The translations under genes were made by a program, and so were the position numbers. This document shows, one piece after another, positions 1 to 59,400 of a DNA stretch of 64,000 nt (positions are counted from its first letter, which is position 1; every line of letters begins with the position of its first letter). A model generated the notes under the pieces. It searched no databases. It was not told the DNA's origin and saw only the letters and a list, made by a program, of their open reading frames with translations. Origin of the DNA: Lanius collurio (Eukaryota; Chordata; Aves; Passeriformes; Laniidae); assembly GCA_020086605.1 (NCBI GenBank), contig JACBWW010000046.1, positions 5,480,159-5,544,158 of the forward strand. Reading direction: 5' to 3'.

Positions 1-8103
<8,103 letters not shown>

Positions 8104-23393: not shown

Positions 23394-23399
23394 GTTTTT
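23394..23399. repeat. Target-site duplication GTTTTT (left)
   Basis: Matches 25917-25922 exactly on the other side of the element. Six bases fits alpha- or betaretrovirus-type integrase. Confidence 0.7.
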
Positions 23400-23698
23400 T
23401 GTGGAGGTGCCTTCCCCTGAAATCCTGGGGGAGGGACCCTGCAGGGTACGGGTCTGTCCCTGTCCCTGTCCCCATGTCATGTGTGCCCCATACCTGTTCC
23501 TGATTGGGTTGGTGTATGTGCCTGGGGCCCAGGGAAAAGAGAGCAGGGTCCCATGACTGGGAGTTGGCCTGGGAACTCCAGCCATGCGGCTGGAGGAATA
23601 AAATAATCCCTGAACATCTACAAAAACATTGCTTCGTCTTTCCTTTCAAGTCCATCGCTGTCTTATATATTGTTGTAAGGATTCCTTGCACTACAACA
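23400..23698 (+). repeat. 5' LTR of copy 1
   Basis: 299 bases starting TGTGGAGG and ending CTACAACA. It holds AATAAA in GGAGGAATAAAATAATCCC and a TTATATATTG stretch near the end. By eye it differs from its own 3' LTR at about 20 positions, more than expected for the low CpG decay inside the element. Confidence 0.9.
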
Positions 23699-23799
23699 AA
23701 CGGTGGCGAATTGCTGGCAGACGATCCCTGGAGAAGGTAATTCGTGAGTAACTCTCAATATGTCTTCTTGCTTTCATTTTGCTGTCCCATCTCTGAACG
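23699..23799 (+). other. Leader with possible primer-binding site and splice donor
   Basis: AACGG then TGGCGAATTGCTGGCAGA follows the LTR and is where a primer-binding site should start with TGG; I cannot match it to a specific tRNA. GTGAGT at 23744-23749 is a good splice donor and is conserved in the other copy. Confidence 0.45.
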
Positions 23800-24115
23800 A
23801 TGGAGGACTCTTGGAAAGACTCATGGCTGTCCGAACCACGGAGACATTTACCTTAAACTAAAAAAGGTTCTGGAACAGCAATATGTAGATTTTAGCTTAA
23901 TGCAAGCTCAGAAAGAATTAAGACACTTTTTGGCATGGCTGTTTAAAAACTTCTTCTATGTTTCTTGGGATTTGATTCTTACCAAGGACTTTTGGAAGAA
24001 TGTTTGGACACAGTTAATTTCTGAATCAAAAAATATGCCGATGCAGGACTATTTCCGTGAGTATTACCTTATTTCAGAGACTGTTGAGCAATATCGGCTG
24101 TGTCCCGCTGAGGTT
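23800..24115 (+). pseudogene. Matrix-like Gag remnant (copy 1), frameshifted
   Basis: An ATG at 23800 opens a frame with SWLSEPRR that ends at a stop within about 20 codons. The homologous continuation YLKLKKVLEQQ lies in another frame, so a small indel separates them. The motif WLFKNFFYV and a following WxxxWTQLI are shared with copy 2. Spacing of Tyr, Leu, Phe and Trp resembles the betaretroviral matrix (Gag p10) fold. In a virus this domain targets Gag to the membrane. Assignment to matrix is by pattern and position after the leader. Confidence 0.6.
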
Positions 24116-24938
24116 TTAGCAGCGAACATGTGGTCGAGCAGTGCGCGCGTTGCAGCGGCTCCTCCGCCACCCCGGAGACCGCGCGGCCCCGGCCGTGGGC
24201 GCCGGGTGCATTGCGGGCGGCGGCGAGGGAGCTCCCGCGTGTGGGAGAGCCAGTGAGGCCCGGCACAGCGGCAGCAGAGCCGGCAGGGAGACCGGAGGTG
24301 GTGGGAATGGAGCCAGGAGCAACGCGGCGGCGTGGGCCTGGCGGTGTTCGTCCTGAGGCAGCGGCGAGGGCAGTGGCGGCCAAGGTGCGTCCCAGCAATG
24401 GCCACCCCGCGCCGCGTGGCGAGCGACAGTCCAAGCCCCGCACCGAGAAAGGCAGTGGCGATTGTGGCAGTCGCTATGGCGACCGTGGTGAGCCACGCTG
24501 AGCAGAGCCAGAGGGGCCTGGGGGCAAGAAGGAAACCGCGCTAGCCGACGGGCACACAGCCGATGGCAGCAGCAGCAGCGGCAGCCCCGGCGTTATGAAG
24601 CCGCGCACACGCAAACGCCTCACAGGGCACAGCTGCGCAGCCGCGCAAACGCCCAGAAAGCGTGGAGCTGCAGTCTCGTGGAAGTCCAGAGGAGAAGCGA
24701 GCACAGCACCAAACGGCGGTGCAGAGGTGGCCGAAGGCGGAGCAGCCGGCAGGGTCAGCGTGCACCAGCACGGCCCGACCAGACCCGCATGGCCCCACAC
24801 GCGATCCCGAGGAGTCAAGACCCCGTGACAAGAACGCGCTGGCAGCCCCAGCCCCGGCGGTCCTGGCTGTGGCAACTCCAACGCGAGAGCGAGCGAAACC
24901 AAAAGTGAAAGCAAGAACAAAGGAACTCGGAAAATGAA
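24116..24938 (+). other. CpG-rich basic/Ala-Gly-Ser region of the element (copy 1)
   Basis: Very GC-rich, CpG-dense sequence linking the matrix remnant to the cold-shock domain. Translations are Arg-, Ala- and Ser-rich with stops and shifts among frames. The same region is in copy 2 (36.0-36.65 kb), so it belongs to the family. Part of it may come from the low-complexity N-terminus of the captured Y-box gene; the rest has no recognisable origin. Confidence 0.6.
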
Positions 24939-25394
24939 AATATTATTGCAGCTAGGGTTTTTGGAACTGTAAAATGGTATAATGTAAAGAAAAATTATGA
25001 TTTCTTATTGAAAAGTGATACTGGAGAAAGTATTTTTGTCCATAAATCTGCTGTTGTGAAAAATAACCCCAAAAGTAATGTTCCAAGCTTAGAAGAAGGA
25101 GAAAGAGTAGAATTTTAAATTGTGCAAGGAAAGAAGGGCTCACAGGCTGCATGTGTTACAGGCACTGGGGCTGTCCCTGTCAAAGGCAGTAGATATGCTA
25201 GACAATATCCCCATAATCCCTATCCTTTCCCCTATGTCACCTTCTCCTTTTATCCCATGCCCCTTTATCTCCCATATATGCCCAGCCCAAATCTGCCTTT
25301 CTGGTACCCCTCACAAAACCAGTCTTTTTCATATGCCATTAATCCCTTTGCAATGCTGATGGGGGGGATGAAAAGGAGAGAGGAAAGAAATTAA
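24939..25394 (+). pseudogene. Captured Y-box cold-shock domain plus Pro/Tyr/Phe tail (copy 1)
   Basis: Codons 24939-25199 encode an 87-residue Y-box-type cold-shock domain. FGTVKWYNV aligns with the GTVKWFNV strand of YBX proteins, the RNP1 site reads KKNYDFL instead of NGYGFI, the RNP2 site reads SIFVHKSAV, and KNNPKSN, EEGERVEF and GSQAACVTG with VPVKGSRYA follow in YBX order. One in-frame TAA lies at 25116. After the domain comes PHNPYPFPY and other Pro/Tyr/Phe-rich sequence, ending FAMLMGGMKRREERN and a stop at 25394. Host YBX proteins bind mRNA and control its packaging and translation. There are no introns, so capture went through RNA. Confidence 0.88.
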
Positions 25395-25618
25395 CCGTCA
25401 TTTTCTAAGATTCCAACAGGTACAGAAAGGAAGAAACCCTCTCCTGACTCAGTTTCCATCTGAAGCATGCTCAAGTCCTGTCTCCCTTCTGATGCTCCAA
25501 AGAAAATCTGTTTGGACATCTGGGGACTCAAGATGGTGGCTTCCTTTCCTTTGAAAATGTTTTGTTGTTTATCCAACTGTATTTTCCAATGTTCTTTATT
25601 TTAAAAGAAAGGGTGAAT
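25395..25618 (+). other. Non-coding tail of the element with polypurine tract (copy 1)
   Basis: About 220 bases between the tail stop and the 3' LTR. It ends AAAAGAAAGGGTGAAT just before TGTGG, the expected place and content of a polypurine tract. The matching segment is kept in copy 2. Confidence 0.6.
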
Positions 25619-25916
25619 TGTGGAGGTAACTTCCCCTGAAATCCCCGGGGGGAGGGACCCTGCAGGGTACGGGTCTGTCCCTGTCCCTGTCCCCATGTCA
25701 CGTGTGCCCCATACCTGTTCCTGATTGGGTTGGTGTGTGTGCCTGGGGCTTGGGGAAAAGAGAGAGGGTCCTGTGACTGGGAGTCGGCCTGGGAACTCCA
25801 GCCATGCAGCTGGAGGAATAAAATAATCCCTGAACATTTACAAAAACATCGCTCCACCTTTCCTTTCAAGTCCATCGCTGTCTTATATATTGTTGTAAGG
25901 ATTCCCCACTACAACA
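25619..25916 (+). repeat. 3' LTR of copy 1
   Basis: 298 bases, TGTGGAGG to CTACAACA. In the central U3 segment (GGCTTGGGG, GGTCCTGTGAC, GTCGGCC) it matches the 3' LTR of copy 2 rather than its own 5' LTR. Confidence 0.9.
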
Positions 25917-25922
25917 GTTTTT
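25917..25922. repeat. Target-site duplication GTTTTT (right)
   Basis: Exact partner of 23394-23399. Confidence 0.7.
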
Positions 25923-26109
25923 CAGGGCTAAAATTTTGGTGCAAGTTATAGCAGGATGAGAGAAGAGTTATAAAAAGTACAAAATTCTATCTCCTTCTCA
26001 GTGAAGGTAGAAATAAAACATTTGCAGGACAGAACATTATCTACCACCAGTTGTGTCTCATATAAATGAGTTGTGCATTGGCATTTTTTGCAGAATTTTT
26101 CAAGCCTAT

Positions 26110-27056
26110 CAGTCTGTTGGGGTTTTGGGAGTTCCCTTTTCTGTTTCTTTTTCCCTCTTGAGGAATTTTTTCCCTATATATGATGCTGGGGCAACAAATT
26201 GCTGGGTACTTGGGAAGGACAAAGGACCTAGCCACTGAGAGTGTGGTCCACTCTCTTTCACCTGGGTGTGTGGGCTTTGGGAGCTCTCAGTGTTCCAACA
26301 GAGAGGCTGCTGCCATCTTGTCAGCACTGCAGGTTTTCTACTTTCGGCTGCCTTCTTTCCACCAAAGAAACCCCGGGATTTCAAAACTCGCCTTTCCCTG
26401 CCCCGCCAGGAGCCGGGCTGCAGCCACCCTGCCTCCGCCATTGCTTTGCTACTCTGTAGACTCGCACATCCTGCCTGCGGAAACCTTTGCGAGTTTCCCG
26501 CTGCAGCTCCAGAGTTGATCCATCTCATCTACCACCCGGGATTTGTGCTCGTCCCTGCTGTTCCAGCCTGCTGTTCCCGAGGGTCTGGCTGGACACCGGA
26601 ATCGGCTGCCCAGGGAGGTCTGTGAAGCCTTTCTTCCATCCCTTTCCCGGATCTCAGGCGGCCATTGCCGTGTGCTCCCCGAGCCCGCTCCGGAGCGCCC
26701 CCTGCAGCCGCGGGGGAACCATCGCACCTGCCCTGCTCACCGGGAGCCGCCAGCGCCCCTGCCGGCTGTGAGTGGAACTGCACCAAAGGGGAAAGGGCCT
26801 GACAGCTGAGAGAGGCTGCACTGGGTTTGTGCTTCTGTTTGCTGTCACTGCCACAGTTATTGCTGTTTGTTTGCTGTGTTATACAGATATATATATATTA
26901 GTAAAGAACTGTTGTTCCTATTCCACATATCTTTGCCTGAAAGCCCCTTAATTTCAAAATTATAATAATTCGGAGGGAAGGAGGTTGCATTTTTAATTTC
27001 AAGGGAGGCTCCTGCCTTCCTTGGCAGACACCTGTCTTTCAAACCAAGACACAGTC
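26110..27056 (+). mobile_element. Solo LTR, passerine ERV type, with 5-bp duplication
   Basis: The LTR is 26115-27051 (937 bases), begins TGTTGGGG and ends CCAAGACA. CAGTC flanks it on both sides (26110-26114 and 27052-27056). A TATATATATATTAG stretch near 26890 and the end segment with GGCTCCTGCCTTCC look like an LTR family common in songbirds, which I recognise by appearance. Five-base duplications fit ERV-L or gammaretrovirus-like elements, so it is unrelated to its neighbour. A solo LTR is the product of recombination between two LTRs. Confidence 0.85.
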
Positions 27057-29370: not shown

Positions 29371-29624
29371 GACAGCTGTGGAGGTGCGTCCCTGTCCCTG
29401 CTCCCATGTCACGTGTGCCCCATACCTGTTCCTGACTGGGTGGTTTGGGTGCCTGGGGGCTGGGGGGGAGGAGGGTCCCAGAGTCTGCTTGGGAACTCCA
29501 GCCATGTGGCTGGAGAAATAAAATCATCTCTGAACCTCTACAAAAATACCGCTTCATCTGTCCTTCCAAATCCATTGCTGTCTTATATATTGTTGTAAGG
29601 ATTGCCTGCACTACAACAGACAGC
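29371..29624 (+). mobile_element. Short solo LTR of the Y-box retrovirus family
   Basis: The LTR is 29377-29618 (242 bases), TGTGGAGG to CTACAACA, flanked by GACAGC on both sides (29371-29376 and 29619-29624). It lacks part of U3 near its start. GGGTGGTTTGG and GGAGAAATAAAATCATCTCTG are closer to the 5' LTR of copy 2 than to the others. A third independent insertion of this LTR group within 15 kb. Confidence 0.9.
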
Positions 29625-34954: not shown

Positions 34955-35251
34955 TGTTGTAATGGGGAATCCTTACAACAAGTATAAGACAGCGATGAAC
35001 TTGGAAGAAAAGATGAAGTGATATTTCTTTAGATGTTCAGGGATGTTTTATTCCTCCAGCCACATGGCTGGAGTTCCCAGGCCGACTCCCAGTCACAGGA
35101 CCCTCTCTCTTTTCCCCAAGCCCCAGGCACACACACCAACCCAATCAGGAACAGGTATGGGGCACATGTGACATGGGGACAGGGACAGGGACAGACCCCG
35201 TACCCTGCAGGGTCCCTCCCCCCGGGGATTTCAGGGGAAGGCACCTCCACA
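34955..35251 (-). repeat. 3' LTR of copy 2
   Basis: 297 bases. Over about 70 bases of central U3 it is identical to the 3' LTR of copy 1. The R/U5 part differs more (AATAAAACATCCC and AAGAAATATCAC). Confidence 0.9.
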
Positions 35252-35476: not shown

Positions 35477-37147
35477 TTAATTTCTTCCCTCTCTCCTTTT
35501 CATCCCCCCCATCAGCATTGCAAAGGGATTAATGGCATATGAAAAAGACTGGTTTTGTGAGGGGAGCCAGAAAGGGAAGTTTGGACTGGGCATATATGGG
35601 AGATAAAGGGGCATGGGATAAAAGGGGAAAGTGGGATAGGGGAAAGGATAGGGATTATGGGGATATTGTCCAGCATATCTACTGCCTTTGACAGGGACAC
35701 CCCTAGGGCCTGTAACACATGCAGCCTGTGAGCCCTTCCTTCCTTGCACAATTTTAAATCCTACTCTTTCTCCTTCTTCTAAGCTTGGAACATTACTTTT
35801 GGGGTTATTTTTCACAATAGCAGATTTATGGATAAAAATACTTTCTCCAGTATCATTTTTCAATTAGAAACTCTAATTTTTCTTTACATTATACCATTTT
35901 ACAGTTCCAAAAACCCTAGCTGCAATAACCTTTTCATTTTTCCGAGTTCCTTTGTTCTTGCTTTCACTTTTGGTTTCGCTCGCTCTCACGTTGGAGTTGC
36001 CACAGCCGGGACTGCCGGGGCCGGGGCCGCCAGCCCTGCCAGCGTGTTCTTGACGCGGGATTTAGACTCCTCGGGATCACGTGTGGCGCCGTGGAGGGCT
36101 GGTTGGGCCGTGCTGGTGCACGCTGACCCTGCCAGCTGCTCCGCCTTCGGCCACCTCTGCACCGCCGTTTGGTGCTGTGCTCGCTTCTCCTCTGGAGCTC
36201 CGCGTGACTGCAGCTCCACGCTTTCTGGGCGTTTGCGCGGCTGCGCAGCTGTGCCCTGTGAGGCGTTTGCGTGTGCGCGGCTTCATAACGCCGGGGCTGC
36301 CGCTGCTGCTGCTGCTGTCGGCTGTGTGCCCGTCGGCTAGCACGGTTCCCTTCTTGCTGCCACACCGCTCCAGCTGGGTTCGGCGTGGCTCACTGCGGTC
36401 GCCATAGTGACTGCTGCTATTGCCGCTGCCTTTCTCACTGCGGGGCTCGGGCTCAGGCTCGGACCATCGTGCACCACACAGTGCGGGGCAGCCACCGCTG
36501 TGACACGCCTCTGCCGCTGCTGCCATCGCTGCCGTCCGCGCTGCTCGCGCCTCTGCTCTTGCTCCTCGTGCCTCTGCTCTCACGGCTCTCTTTTTGCGTT
36601 TTTCAGCAGCTCTTTCTACTAGCTCTCCTTCTTTATTCACTGTAAGAATACCTCGGAGACCCCTAGGAATGCGCTCTCACATCCAGCGTCTTCGTTGTCG
36701 CTCTCTCACCCGCTGTCGCTCAAGAGTGCACTCCGATACAGGGATGGGGTCTGCTCTACGGCTTGTGCTTTTAGGGGGGCTGGGCCCCTCCACCGCAGGC
36801 ACCTCAGCCACAGGCACCTCTGTGTTACTGGGACCGAGTATATGCTTTATGAGAGCATCTTCAATTGCAAAAGAAGCTAGGATCAATTCTGCTACCATTC
36901 CACTTTTTGACTGAATCATTATCAACTCATCGATTTCTTTCCAAAAATTGTCCCCTCTAGTCACGGGAAAACCAACATCAAAAATTAAGCCTTGAGTGAC
37001 ATAAAAGAAATTTTTGAAAAGCCAGTTAAAGAAGTGTTCTAAATGTCCTGGGTCCAGTTTTGCATTTTGTTTCACTAGAATTTCTTTCACTTTTAAGTAC
37101 ATTTTTCTCTGTGGCTCAGATAGCCACAGCTCCTCTGATTTCTCCAT
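35477..37147 (-). pseudogene. Gag matrix-Y-box fusion ORF (copy 2), five stops
   Basis: From ATG at 37147 to the stop at 35477 there are 557 codons in a single frame without a shift. In-frame stops are TGA 36679-36677, TGA 36079-36077, TAA 36064-36062, TAG 35875-35873 and TAA 35866-35864. Order: matrix-like domain (about residues 1-115, with LWLSEPQRKMYLK and WLFKNFFYV), a Pro/acidic stretch, an Arg/Ala/Glu-rich region (EKRKKRAVRAEARGARAEA) and Ser/Gly-rich part, a Gly/Pro linker, the cold-shock domain (35932-35672, 87 codons, KVIAARVFGTVKWYNV and SIFIHKSAI), and a tail ending GGMKRREGRN. The ATG was chosen because copy 1 keeps the same ATGGAG position. Function is inferred: Gag-like targeting joined to an RNA-binding domain. 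Not a working gene now. Confidence 0.85.
35672..35932 (-). other. Y-box cold-shock domain of copy 2
   Basis: It begins KVIAARVFGTVKWYNV, where KVIA precedes the first strand exactly as in YBX1-3, and ends VPVKGSRYA. Two stops destroy the RNP1 region, which is open in copy 1; conversely the codon that is a stop in copy 1 is open here (GFKIVQ). The two copies therefore decayed separately. Confidence 0.88.
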
Positions 37148-37275
37148 CTGGTCAGAAAGTACAGCCAAAAACAAGACAATAAGAAAGTTCAGTTACTCAC
37201 AATTCACATCAGTGTTCTCTGGACCTTTAGAAATCGTTTTCAAGGATCAAATGTCCATGTATCTCTACCATTTTT

Positions 37276-37559
37276 TGGAATGGGGAATCCTTACAGCATA
37301 TATAAGACAGCGATGGACTTGGAAGGAAAGATGAAGCGATAGTTTATAGATGTTCAGAGATGATTTATTTCTCCAGCCGCATGGCTGGAGTTCCCAGGCA
37401 GACCCCAGTCATTGGACCCTGCTCTCTTCCCCGGGCCCTGGGCACAGCCAAACCACCCAATCAGGAACAGGCATGGGGCACACGTGACATGGGGACAGGG
37501 ACAGACCTGTACCCTGCAGGGTCACTCCCCCCAGGACCCCAGGGAGAGGCACCTCCACA
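37276..37559 (-). repeat. 5' LTR of copy 2
   Basis: 284 bases. The outer edge TGTGGAGG is intact; the inner edge is altered (ATTCCA instead of CTACAACA). GAGCAGGGTCCAATGAC and GCGGCTGG group it with the 5' LTR of copy 1, and GGGTGGTTTGG with the solo LTR at 29377. Confidence 0.85.
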
Positions 37560-47663: not shown

Positions 47664-48035
47664 CGCCGCTCCCGCACCGCTCCGCACCGCTCCCGCACCG
47701 CTCCCGCACCTCTCCCGCACCGCTCCCGCACCGCTCCGCACCGCTCCGCTCCGCACCGCACCGCTCCCACACCGCTCCTCACCGCACCTCTCCCGCACCG
47801 CTCCCACACCGCACCGCACCGCACCGCACCGCTCCCACACCGCTCCGCACCGCACCTCTCCCGCACCGCTCCCGCACCGCTCCCGCACCGCTCCGCACCG
47901 CACCTCTCCCGCACCGCACCGCTCCCGCACCTCTCCCGCACCGCTCCGCACCGCTCCCGCACCGCTCCCACACCGCTCCGCACCGCTCCGCACCGCACCT
48001 CTCCCGCACCGCACCGCTCCCGCACCTCTCCCGCG
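47664..48035. repeat. GC-rich minisatellite
   Basis: About 370 bases of irregular tandem units: CCGCTCCGCA (10), CCGCTCCCGCA (11), CCTCTCCCGCA (11), CCGCTCCCACA (11) and extra CCGCA blocks (5). No unit contains a stop in most frames, so both strands show very long ORFs here (387 codons + and 431 codons -) that are by-products of the repeat. Confidence 0.9.
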
Positions 48036-58429: not shown

Positions 58430-59400
58430 GAGTTTCTTCCCTGCACGCGGCTTTCGGCGGCTGCGGGGGCGCGGCGGTCCCGGCTCGCAGCCCCGGGCCG
58501 GGTTCAGGCGAATCCCCGGCGCTCTAAGTACCCGGTACCCGCTGCGGGCGGGCCCAGCGCACCGCGCACCGCCCGGGCCGTGCCCAGCGGCCGCGCAGCG
58601 CTCGCCGGGCGGTCCCGGAGCATCGCCCGCCCCGNNNNNNNNNNNNNNNNNNNNNNNNNNNNNNNNNNNNNNNNNNNNNNNNNNNNNNNNNNNNNNNNNN
58701 NNNNNNNNNNNNNNNNNNNNNNNNNNNNNNNNNNNNNNNNNNNNNNNNNNNNNNNNNNNNNNNNNNNNNNNNNNNNNNNNNNNNNNNNNNNNNNNNNNNN
58801 NNNNNNNNNNNNNNNNNNNNNNNNNNNNNNNNNNNNNNNNNNNNNNNNNNNNNNNNNNNNNNNNNNNNNNNNNNNNNNNNNNNNNNNNNNNNNNNNNNNN
58901 NNNNNNNNNNNNNNNNNNNNNNNNNNNNNNNNNNNNNNNNNNNNNNNNNNNNNNNNNNNNNNNNNNNNNNNNNNNNNNNNNNNNNNNNNNNNNNNNNNNN
59001 NNNNNNNNNNNNNNNNNNNNNNNNNNNGGCTCGGCGGGACCCCCTTCCGCCGCTGACCCGTGGGCGGGGTCGCGCCGCTCCCCGCGGGGCACGGGCGGAC
59101 ACGGGCCCGGCCGACACTTTGCGGAGGGGGTAAAGAAGTTAAAAAACCTCATCCAAAACCGCCCCCAAAACTATTAAAAAAACTTCCGTGGCGGGGGGGT
59201 GGGGAGCGTGGCGGCACCGACTGTGCCCCGCCGAGGGAGCCGCCCCGCACAAAGGCGGCCCCGGGGCTCGGGGGCCGTGGCGCGGCGGGCGGTGACAGCG
59301 GGGCAGAGCCGGGGGCGGCGGGCGGGGCCCCCGGGCCTTGGTGCGGGAGTGGAGCGCGGGGCCGGTTCCCACGTGGATGCGGGGCGCCCCCACGACCCCC
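58430..59400. promoter_or_regulatory. CpG island, probable promoter and first exon of an unidentified gene
   Basis: Dense CpG and high GC on both sides of the gap, falling sharply to AT-rich sequence after 59410. Such islands usually mark promoters in birds. I find no recognisable coding sequence in the visible parts, so the first coding exon, if any, may be in the gap or the transcript may start with a non-coding exon. Confidence 0.65.
58635..59027. other. Assembly gap (393 N)
   Basis: Run of N inside the CpG island. ORFs spanning it are artefacts. Confidence 1.

Follow-up and report, generated by a model that had tools for sequence, protein, structure and literature searches.

A multi-copy LTR retroelement family that carries a YBX1-like cold-shock domain in the genome of Lanius collurio

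Results

The stretch of DNA analysed here, hereafter the window, comprises 64,000 nucleotides of the passerine Lanius collurio (contig JACBWW010000046.1, positions 5,480,159 to 5,544,158 of the forward strand, assembly GCA_020086605.1) and harbors two copies, A and B, of a long terminal repeat (LTR) retroelement with a cold-shock domain (CSD) of the Y-box type. The two copies are about 9 kb apart on opposite strands, copy A at 23400-25916 (plus) and copy B from 37559 down to 34955 (minus), and each is an LTR element of 2.5-2.6 kb with LTRs of about 300 bp, flanked by a 6-bp target duplication (Table 1). LTRs with TG...CA ends and a poly(A) signal are directly visible in copy A, and the 3' LTR of copy B shows the same features. 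The Kimura two-parameter (K2P) divergence between the paired LTRs amounts to 0.064 in copy A and 0.145 in copy B. Downstream of position 24361 both copies are 91% identical, and the leaders found upstream of this position differ. The divergence between the two LTRs of copy B raised the question of gene conversion between the copies, but this is an unneeded assumption, as the 9% divergence between the copies is about half of the summed LTR divergences.

In copy A the segment 24909-25115 matches the Pfam family PF00313 with an E-value of 2.3e-12, and the best match among solved structures is the CSD of YBX1; in copy B the same family is detected in the piece 35480-35863. Both scores (47 and 38.2 bits) lie above the Pfam cut-off of 27. 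Accordingly, the proposal made in a previous sequence-only reading of this locus, namely a Y-box CSD lying between retroviral LTRs with a target duplication, is confirmed by the profile and structure matches, by the identity of the LTR pair of copy A and by the GTTTTT duplication present on both sides, and the five motifs quoted in that reading are all found in the translation of copy A. The same reading described the domain as a single unit of 87 residues; its identity as a CSD stands, but the unit is interrupted by one in-frame stop in copy A and by two stops in copy B, all within the domain.

Table 1. Positions, in the window, of the features of copies A and B and of a related LTR fragment.
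Feature	Positions	Strand	Basis or remark
Target-site duplication GTTTTT, left of copy A	23394..23399		6-bp duplication comparison
5' LTR, copy A	23400..23698	+	92.4% identical to 3' LTR; TG...CA ends
A-type leader frame, copy A	23741..24256	+	start present in relatives is absent from the frame; no Pfam family, E up to 1
GC-rich linker, copy A	24257..24938	+	alignable to copy B from 24361; no Pfam family at cut-off
First part of CSD, copy A	24957..25115	+	Pfam 47 bits; YBX1 structure match, E 8.9e-17; stop at 25116-25118 follows
End of CSD and aromatic tail up to the stop, copy A	25119..25394	+	translation
3' LTR with AATAAA, copy A	25619..25916	+	LTR comparison
Target-site duplication GTTTTT, right of copy A	25917..25922		6-bp duplication comparison
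Lone LTR fragment, same family	29388..29621	+	82% identical to copy A LTRs
3' LTR, copy B	34955..35251	-	LTR comparison
CSD and tail, copy B, 2 stops inside the domain	35480..35914	-	tblastn; Pfam 38.2 bits (35480-35863)
B-type leader frame, copy B	36680..37189	-	no Pfam family, E up to 1
5' LTR, copy B	37275..37559	-	duplication TGTGGG/CGTGGG outside

The assembly to which the window belongs (1.097 Gb, 2132 contigs) was searched with several queries, and the resulting counts are lower bounds. A CSD query of 69 residues returned 1207 first-look candidates, and all 150 that were scored proved to be matches (E below 1e-28), 14 of them listing an internal stop. Likewise, 3364 candidates were obtained with an LTR query (40 of 40 scored match) and 1112 with human YBX1 (150 of 150). 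The ten matches closest to the latter, which we read as an older layer, are each a continuous domain that shares 73-78% of its residues with human YBX1 over query residues 3-62 or 4-62 and in this respect resembles the CSD of vertebrate YBX1/2/3. These numbers run counter to the restriction to two copies, as an assembly artefact, that the sequence-only reading had considered.

For the analysis of structure, 34 loci around CSD matches were taken in addition to those cut out by the searches; 14 of the 34 were picked mostly for long frames, so that the shares of open copies given below are biased. Paired LTRs surround the CSD in 39 of 46 CSD rows, distributed over many contigs, and three of the seven rows that have no pair contain unread stretches. 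After removal of one repeat of copy A and one mis-paired row, 37 elements remained, with a length of 2060-2603 bp and LTRs mostly near 240-300 bp. The K2P divergence of the LTR pairs ranges from 0.021 to 0.159 (median 0.091, 39 rows), values given as divergences only because their conversion into absolute dates depends on the rate. When the best pair of candidate ends was compared in each of the 37 elements, 21 of the 23 with testable ends showed a 6-bp duplication in which no more than one position is mismatched. The elements thus belong to an LTR retroelement family that is present in many copies and flanked by target duplications of 6 bp. An assembly artefact, or processed YBX1 pseudogenes lodged by chance between unrelated LTRs, is refuted by the frequency of LTR pairs and duplications and by the relatives present in corvids (see below), and can for practical purposes be dismissed. 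At locus L015 a second CSD is located about 1.6 kb from the first and has no LTR pair of its own, which suggests a nested or tandem insertion.

A single frame of at least 480 codons, measured from stop to stop, is retained in 9 of the 37 elements, and these open elements are younger than the others (median LTR divergence 0.059 against 0.107, p 0.009). The longest frames join four parts in this order: a leader, a linker of high GC content, the CSD and a tail in which Pro, Tyr and Phe abound. In many rows the sequence after the 5' LTR is TGGTGGAG, a candidate primer-binding site, and in one copy this site is close to what we take to be the end of tRNA-Ala. Neither a capsid nor a protease, reverse transcriptase or integrase family was detected by Pfam in the nine window pieces and eight leaders scanned, a set in which the linker is represented by the window sequence. 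Based on this result and on the length of the elements, the family is read as ERVK-like (class II) and as non-autonomous, the latter being well supported although not proven; given that no polymerase was found, the element probably needs a helper. This apparent non-autonomous nature is an addition to what the sequence-only reading had claimed. Two frames of 1747 and 1893 codons were considered as a fusion of the CSD with Gag-Pol and rejected, since their loci contain long unread stretches.

Among the matches listed in the protein database searches (in one of them the best 120 of 290), the leader-linker-CSD layout is found in uncharacterized proteins of two corvids: Corvus moneduloides is represented by P0002, P0010 (24 member sequences), P0011 and P0013, and Aphelocoma coerulescens by P0012. 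P0001, which begins inside the leader, has the complete aromatic tail, as do P0002, P0010 and P0012, and in P0011 and P0013 the tail is truncated or lacking. The basic and acidic C-terminal repeats of the YBX family are absent from the six corvid proteins aligned, which, in contrast to YBX1/2/3, display the aromatic tail in their place, and a partial resemblance to these repeats is seen in P0014. Two homologous types of leader, 40% identical over 87 residues, are joined to the same CSD module: among 55 CSD copies 34 have type A, 17 type B and three none, and one further copy is ambiguous. The ten YBX1-like copies include no type A leader and seven of type B, and both types are present in the corvid proteins. 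Since open frames occur in the genome and gene models of corvids have entered the databases, it might be argued that these are CSD copies domesticated by the host, for instance in defence against a helper retrovirus. Nevertheless, the copies are scattered, flanked by LTR pairs and target duplications and variable in LTR divergence, as in a mobile family, and domestication is considered very improbable.

The origin of the domain was addressed with the same sequences. YBX genes have introns within the CSD region, and in the best rows the CSD matches run uninterrupted between the LTRs. Together with the 6-bp duplications and with the corvid proteins of the same layout, this supports the proposal of the sequence-only reading that an LTR element captured a YBX-like mRNA. 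The top scores of P0014, encoded by a contig of 1408 bases, are to YBX1-type proteins; its alignment with one of them extends beyond the CSD (57% over 169 columns), that with lungfish YBX1 stops within the domain, and its tail resembles the aromatic tail of the family. Beyond the CSD, P0014 appears to retain sequence that resembles YBX1. In a small midpoint-rooted tree of the CSD, P0014 is placed beside YBX proteins (support 99), and the younger copies of the genome form one group (support 100) separate from the older copies. Derivation of the CSD from a YBX1-like mRNA, with YBX1 as the best donor candidate, is therefore well supported on the strength of these alignments, though not proven. 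YBX2, suggested by the motif VPVKGSRYA, was set aside as donor, not definitively, because P0014 aligns best to YBX1-type proteins in a comparison that did not include bird YBX genes. With moderate confidence we hypothesize, as the simplest reading, that a YBX1-like mRNA was captured once and that the resulting lineages came to be common to corvids and the present host, either by descent or by transfer. No related locus was retrieved in one scan of IMG/VR. A Y-box-like protein with divergent flanks was observed in the bat Phyllostomus discolor (P0003), possibly a YBX retrocopy.

In order to evaluate selection, pairwise ratios of nonsynonymous to synonymous divergence (dN/dS) were estimated by the Nei-Gojobori method and are given as medians; a few of the copies compared correspond to each other on nearly identical pairs of contigs, for example C45/C46. 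The ratio is 0.27 for the CSD (43 copies), 0.36 for the leader (26), and 0.64 for both the linker (25) and the tail (29). Moreover, between the YBX1-like set (10 copies) and a young set (6 copies) the CSD displays a dS of 0.94 and a dN of 0.25, that is a ratio of 0.26; for the two remaining frames the same comparison yields 1.15 and 1.49. At the observed dS of 0.18 only 3 of the 43 CSD copies contain a stop. Lys, Trp, Phe, Phe and His, which we assume to be the aromatic and basic residues of the nucleic-acid face, are conserved in 54-55 of 55 copies. The contigs C45 and C46, each of about 6.44 Mb and in opposite orientation, are about 97% identical in this region (locus L005 against window 23429-26616) and represent either divergent haplotypes or a large duplication; the counterpart of copy A on C45 has a longer open frame around the CSD.

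A domain that travels as a passenger, with no role of its own, could yield similar values if a small number of recent source elements had left the open frames behind and sampling bias accounted for the low ratios. Several points of this kind weigh against selection. Similarity to the CSD decided the ranking of the copies, and some loci were picked for long frames; each of these choices lowers dN/dS as well as the number of stops. Both copies of the window do carry stops. A neutral simulation with similarity ranking (a star tree of 1207 sequences derived from one start sequence, the top 43 being kept), which covers the ranking only and not the choice of long-frame loci, gives at a dS of 0.11 ratios of 0.26-0.39, overlapping the observed value, and stops in 5-9 of 43 copies. 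At the observed dS, however, the same simulation gives 0.44-0.57 and stops in 10-21 of 43 copies, in both respects above what is found. In addition, the ratio between subfamilies is low as well, at the higher dS of that comparison, the linker and the tail have evolved more loosely than the domain, and the layout is retained in corvids. Consequently, a mere passenger is regarded as quite unlikely, and evolution of the CSD under purifying selection is the better reading, chiefly by virtue of the subfamily comparison.

Elsewhere in the window, the small nucleolar RNA snoU109 (H/ACA; Rfam RF01233, 117 bits) is found at 7730-7873, presumably within a host-gene intron. Between 47297 and 48719 long open frames occur on both strands (420 and 433 codons), with a GC-rich tandem repeat of 11/5-bp units inside (47666-48034), and a run of 393 N at 58635-59027 is possibly an assembly gap.

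Discussion

The use of host YB-1 by retroviruses and the capture of host genes by endogenous retroviruses (ERVs) are already known, and the present, abundant family seems to possess a Y-box domain of its own that selection has maintained. No description of a cold-shock domain in an ERV was found in the titles and opening lines of the abstracts of the open-licence literature matches listed, in agreement with the sequence-only reading, which knew of no avian family of this design, and a term search of two papers on passerine ERVK elements returned no mention of an element bearing a CSD. Short LTR elements that have no polymerase and depend on a helper include ETn and plant elements of the TR-GAG type, and we know of no VL30, ETn or TR-GAG type element with a host cold-shock domain. 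VL30 resembles the present family in being a short LTR element that encodes no polymerase and needs a helper (PMC4859993). A parallel regarding the cargo is offered by CrocERV29 and CrocERV31, ERV lineages that have taken in host mRNAs, for KIT-ligand and nectin3 respectively, the KIT-ligand frames of CrocERV29 being reported to evolve under purifying selection (PMC4299795). In those lineages, however, the KIT-ligand cargo is placed between pol and env and the nectin3 cargo takes the place of env (PMC4299795), whereas the present family has an RNA-binding domain joined to a short leader that precedes it, and the pieces tested yielded neither a capsid nor a polymerase domain. The Gag protein of the betaretrovirus mouse mammary tumor virus (MMTV) is assembled together with YB-1 and viral RNA, and knockdown of YB-1 reportedly lowers particle production (PMC4486188). 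Both cases would join retroviral assembly of the betaretroviral kind to a Y-box protein, with the difference that MMTV borrows it from the host and the present element encodes its own domain (PMC4486188).

In order to explain why such a domain would be maintained, we hypothesize that the protein acts as a ribonucleoprotein or packaging adaptor in a non-autonomous family whose YBX1-like CSD is under selection, a proposal to which we give roughly even chances. The CSD would take the RNA-binding role of the nucleocapsid and hold the element's own transcript, and the leader or the tail would carry the bound RNA to a helper retrovirus, the leader possibly serving as an exchangeable docking part on the helper Gag. 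Capsid, reverse transcriptase and integrase would be supplied by the helper. A preference of the protein for the RNA that encodes it is proposed as the reason why many copies stayed open. The adaptor is favored because an RNA-binding fold sits at the place of the nucleocapsid in Gag and because MMTV assembles with YB-1. With respect to possible partners in the same genome, a search for Gag_p24 gave 261 candidates, all 150 scored being above the cut-off and many lying in open frames of 500-800 codons, and these are candidate helpers.

Several results speak against the adaptor. No helper was identified, and two Gag N-termini of the genome that adjoin p24 domains are dissimilar to the leaders. 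Neither Pfam nor the PDB gave a match to the leader below an E-value of 0.001 (the best being Vezatin, 0.0099, and AlbF, 0.02), and the structure model of the leader is poor, with a mean predicted local distance difference test score (pLDDT) of 55.5. Identification of the leader as a retroviral matrix, which was considered, is supported neither by these searches and the model nor by the Gag N-terminus comparison. Of two motifs that we take to be preferred by YB-1, CAUC shows no clear enrichment in the element (median z 0.39) and CACC is underrepresented (z -1.85), both in 36 copies.

Alternatively, the domain may act on the host rather than on the element. YBX proteins bind mRNA broadly, and a mimic expressed in germ cells might mask, stabilize or release host mRNAs, or displace YBX from silencing complexes, and in this way provide a better germline environment for the element. 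Retention of the nucleic-acid residues of YBX and purifying selection would both be expected of such a protein; against it, one may argue that an effect in trans would hardly keep single copies open unless the copy number is low. A host-acting mimic is regarded as unlikely.

Returning to the packaging adaptor, a more comprehensive scenario may be drawn, in which a satellite retroelement has as its sole protein a self-encoded adaptor, formed by a captured YBX1 CSD in place of the nucleocapsid, and with swappable leaders follows changing helpers, its lineages occurring in corvids and in the present host and one of its copies being an insertion near NDP in hooded crows. Taken as a whole this scenario is speculative and doubtful. 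The insertion in question, corCorLTRK1b, is an ERVK element of 2.25 kb with an LTR of 296 bp, situated 20 kb upstream of NDP in hooded crows and linked to plumage (PMC7341801). It resembles the present family in class and in size (here 2.06-2.60 kb, with LTRs mostly near 240-300 bp) (PMC7341801), and its possible membership is a lead based on this match in size and class. If the NDP insertion does belong here, the family would have a bearing on a trait involved in the incipient speciation of crows. More generally, an element that encodes its own Y-box domain may constitute a natural experiment on the requirements for the packaging of retroelements.
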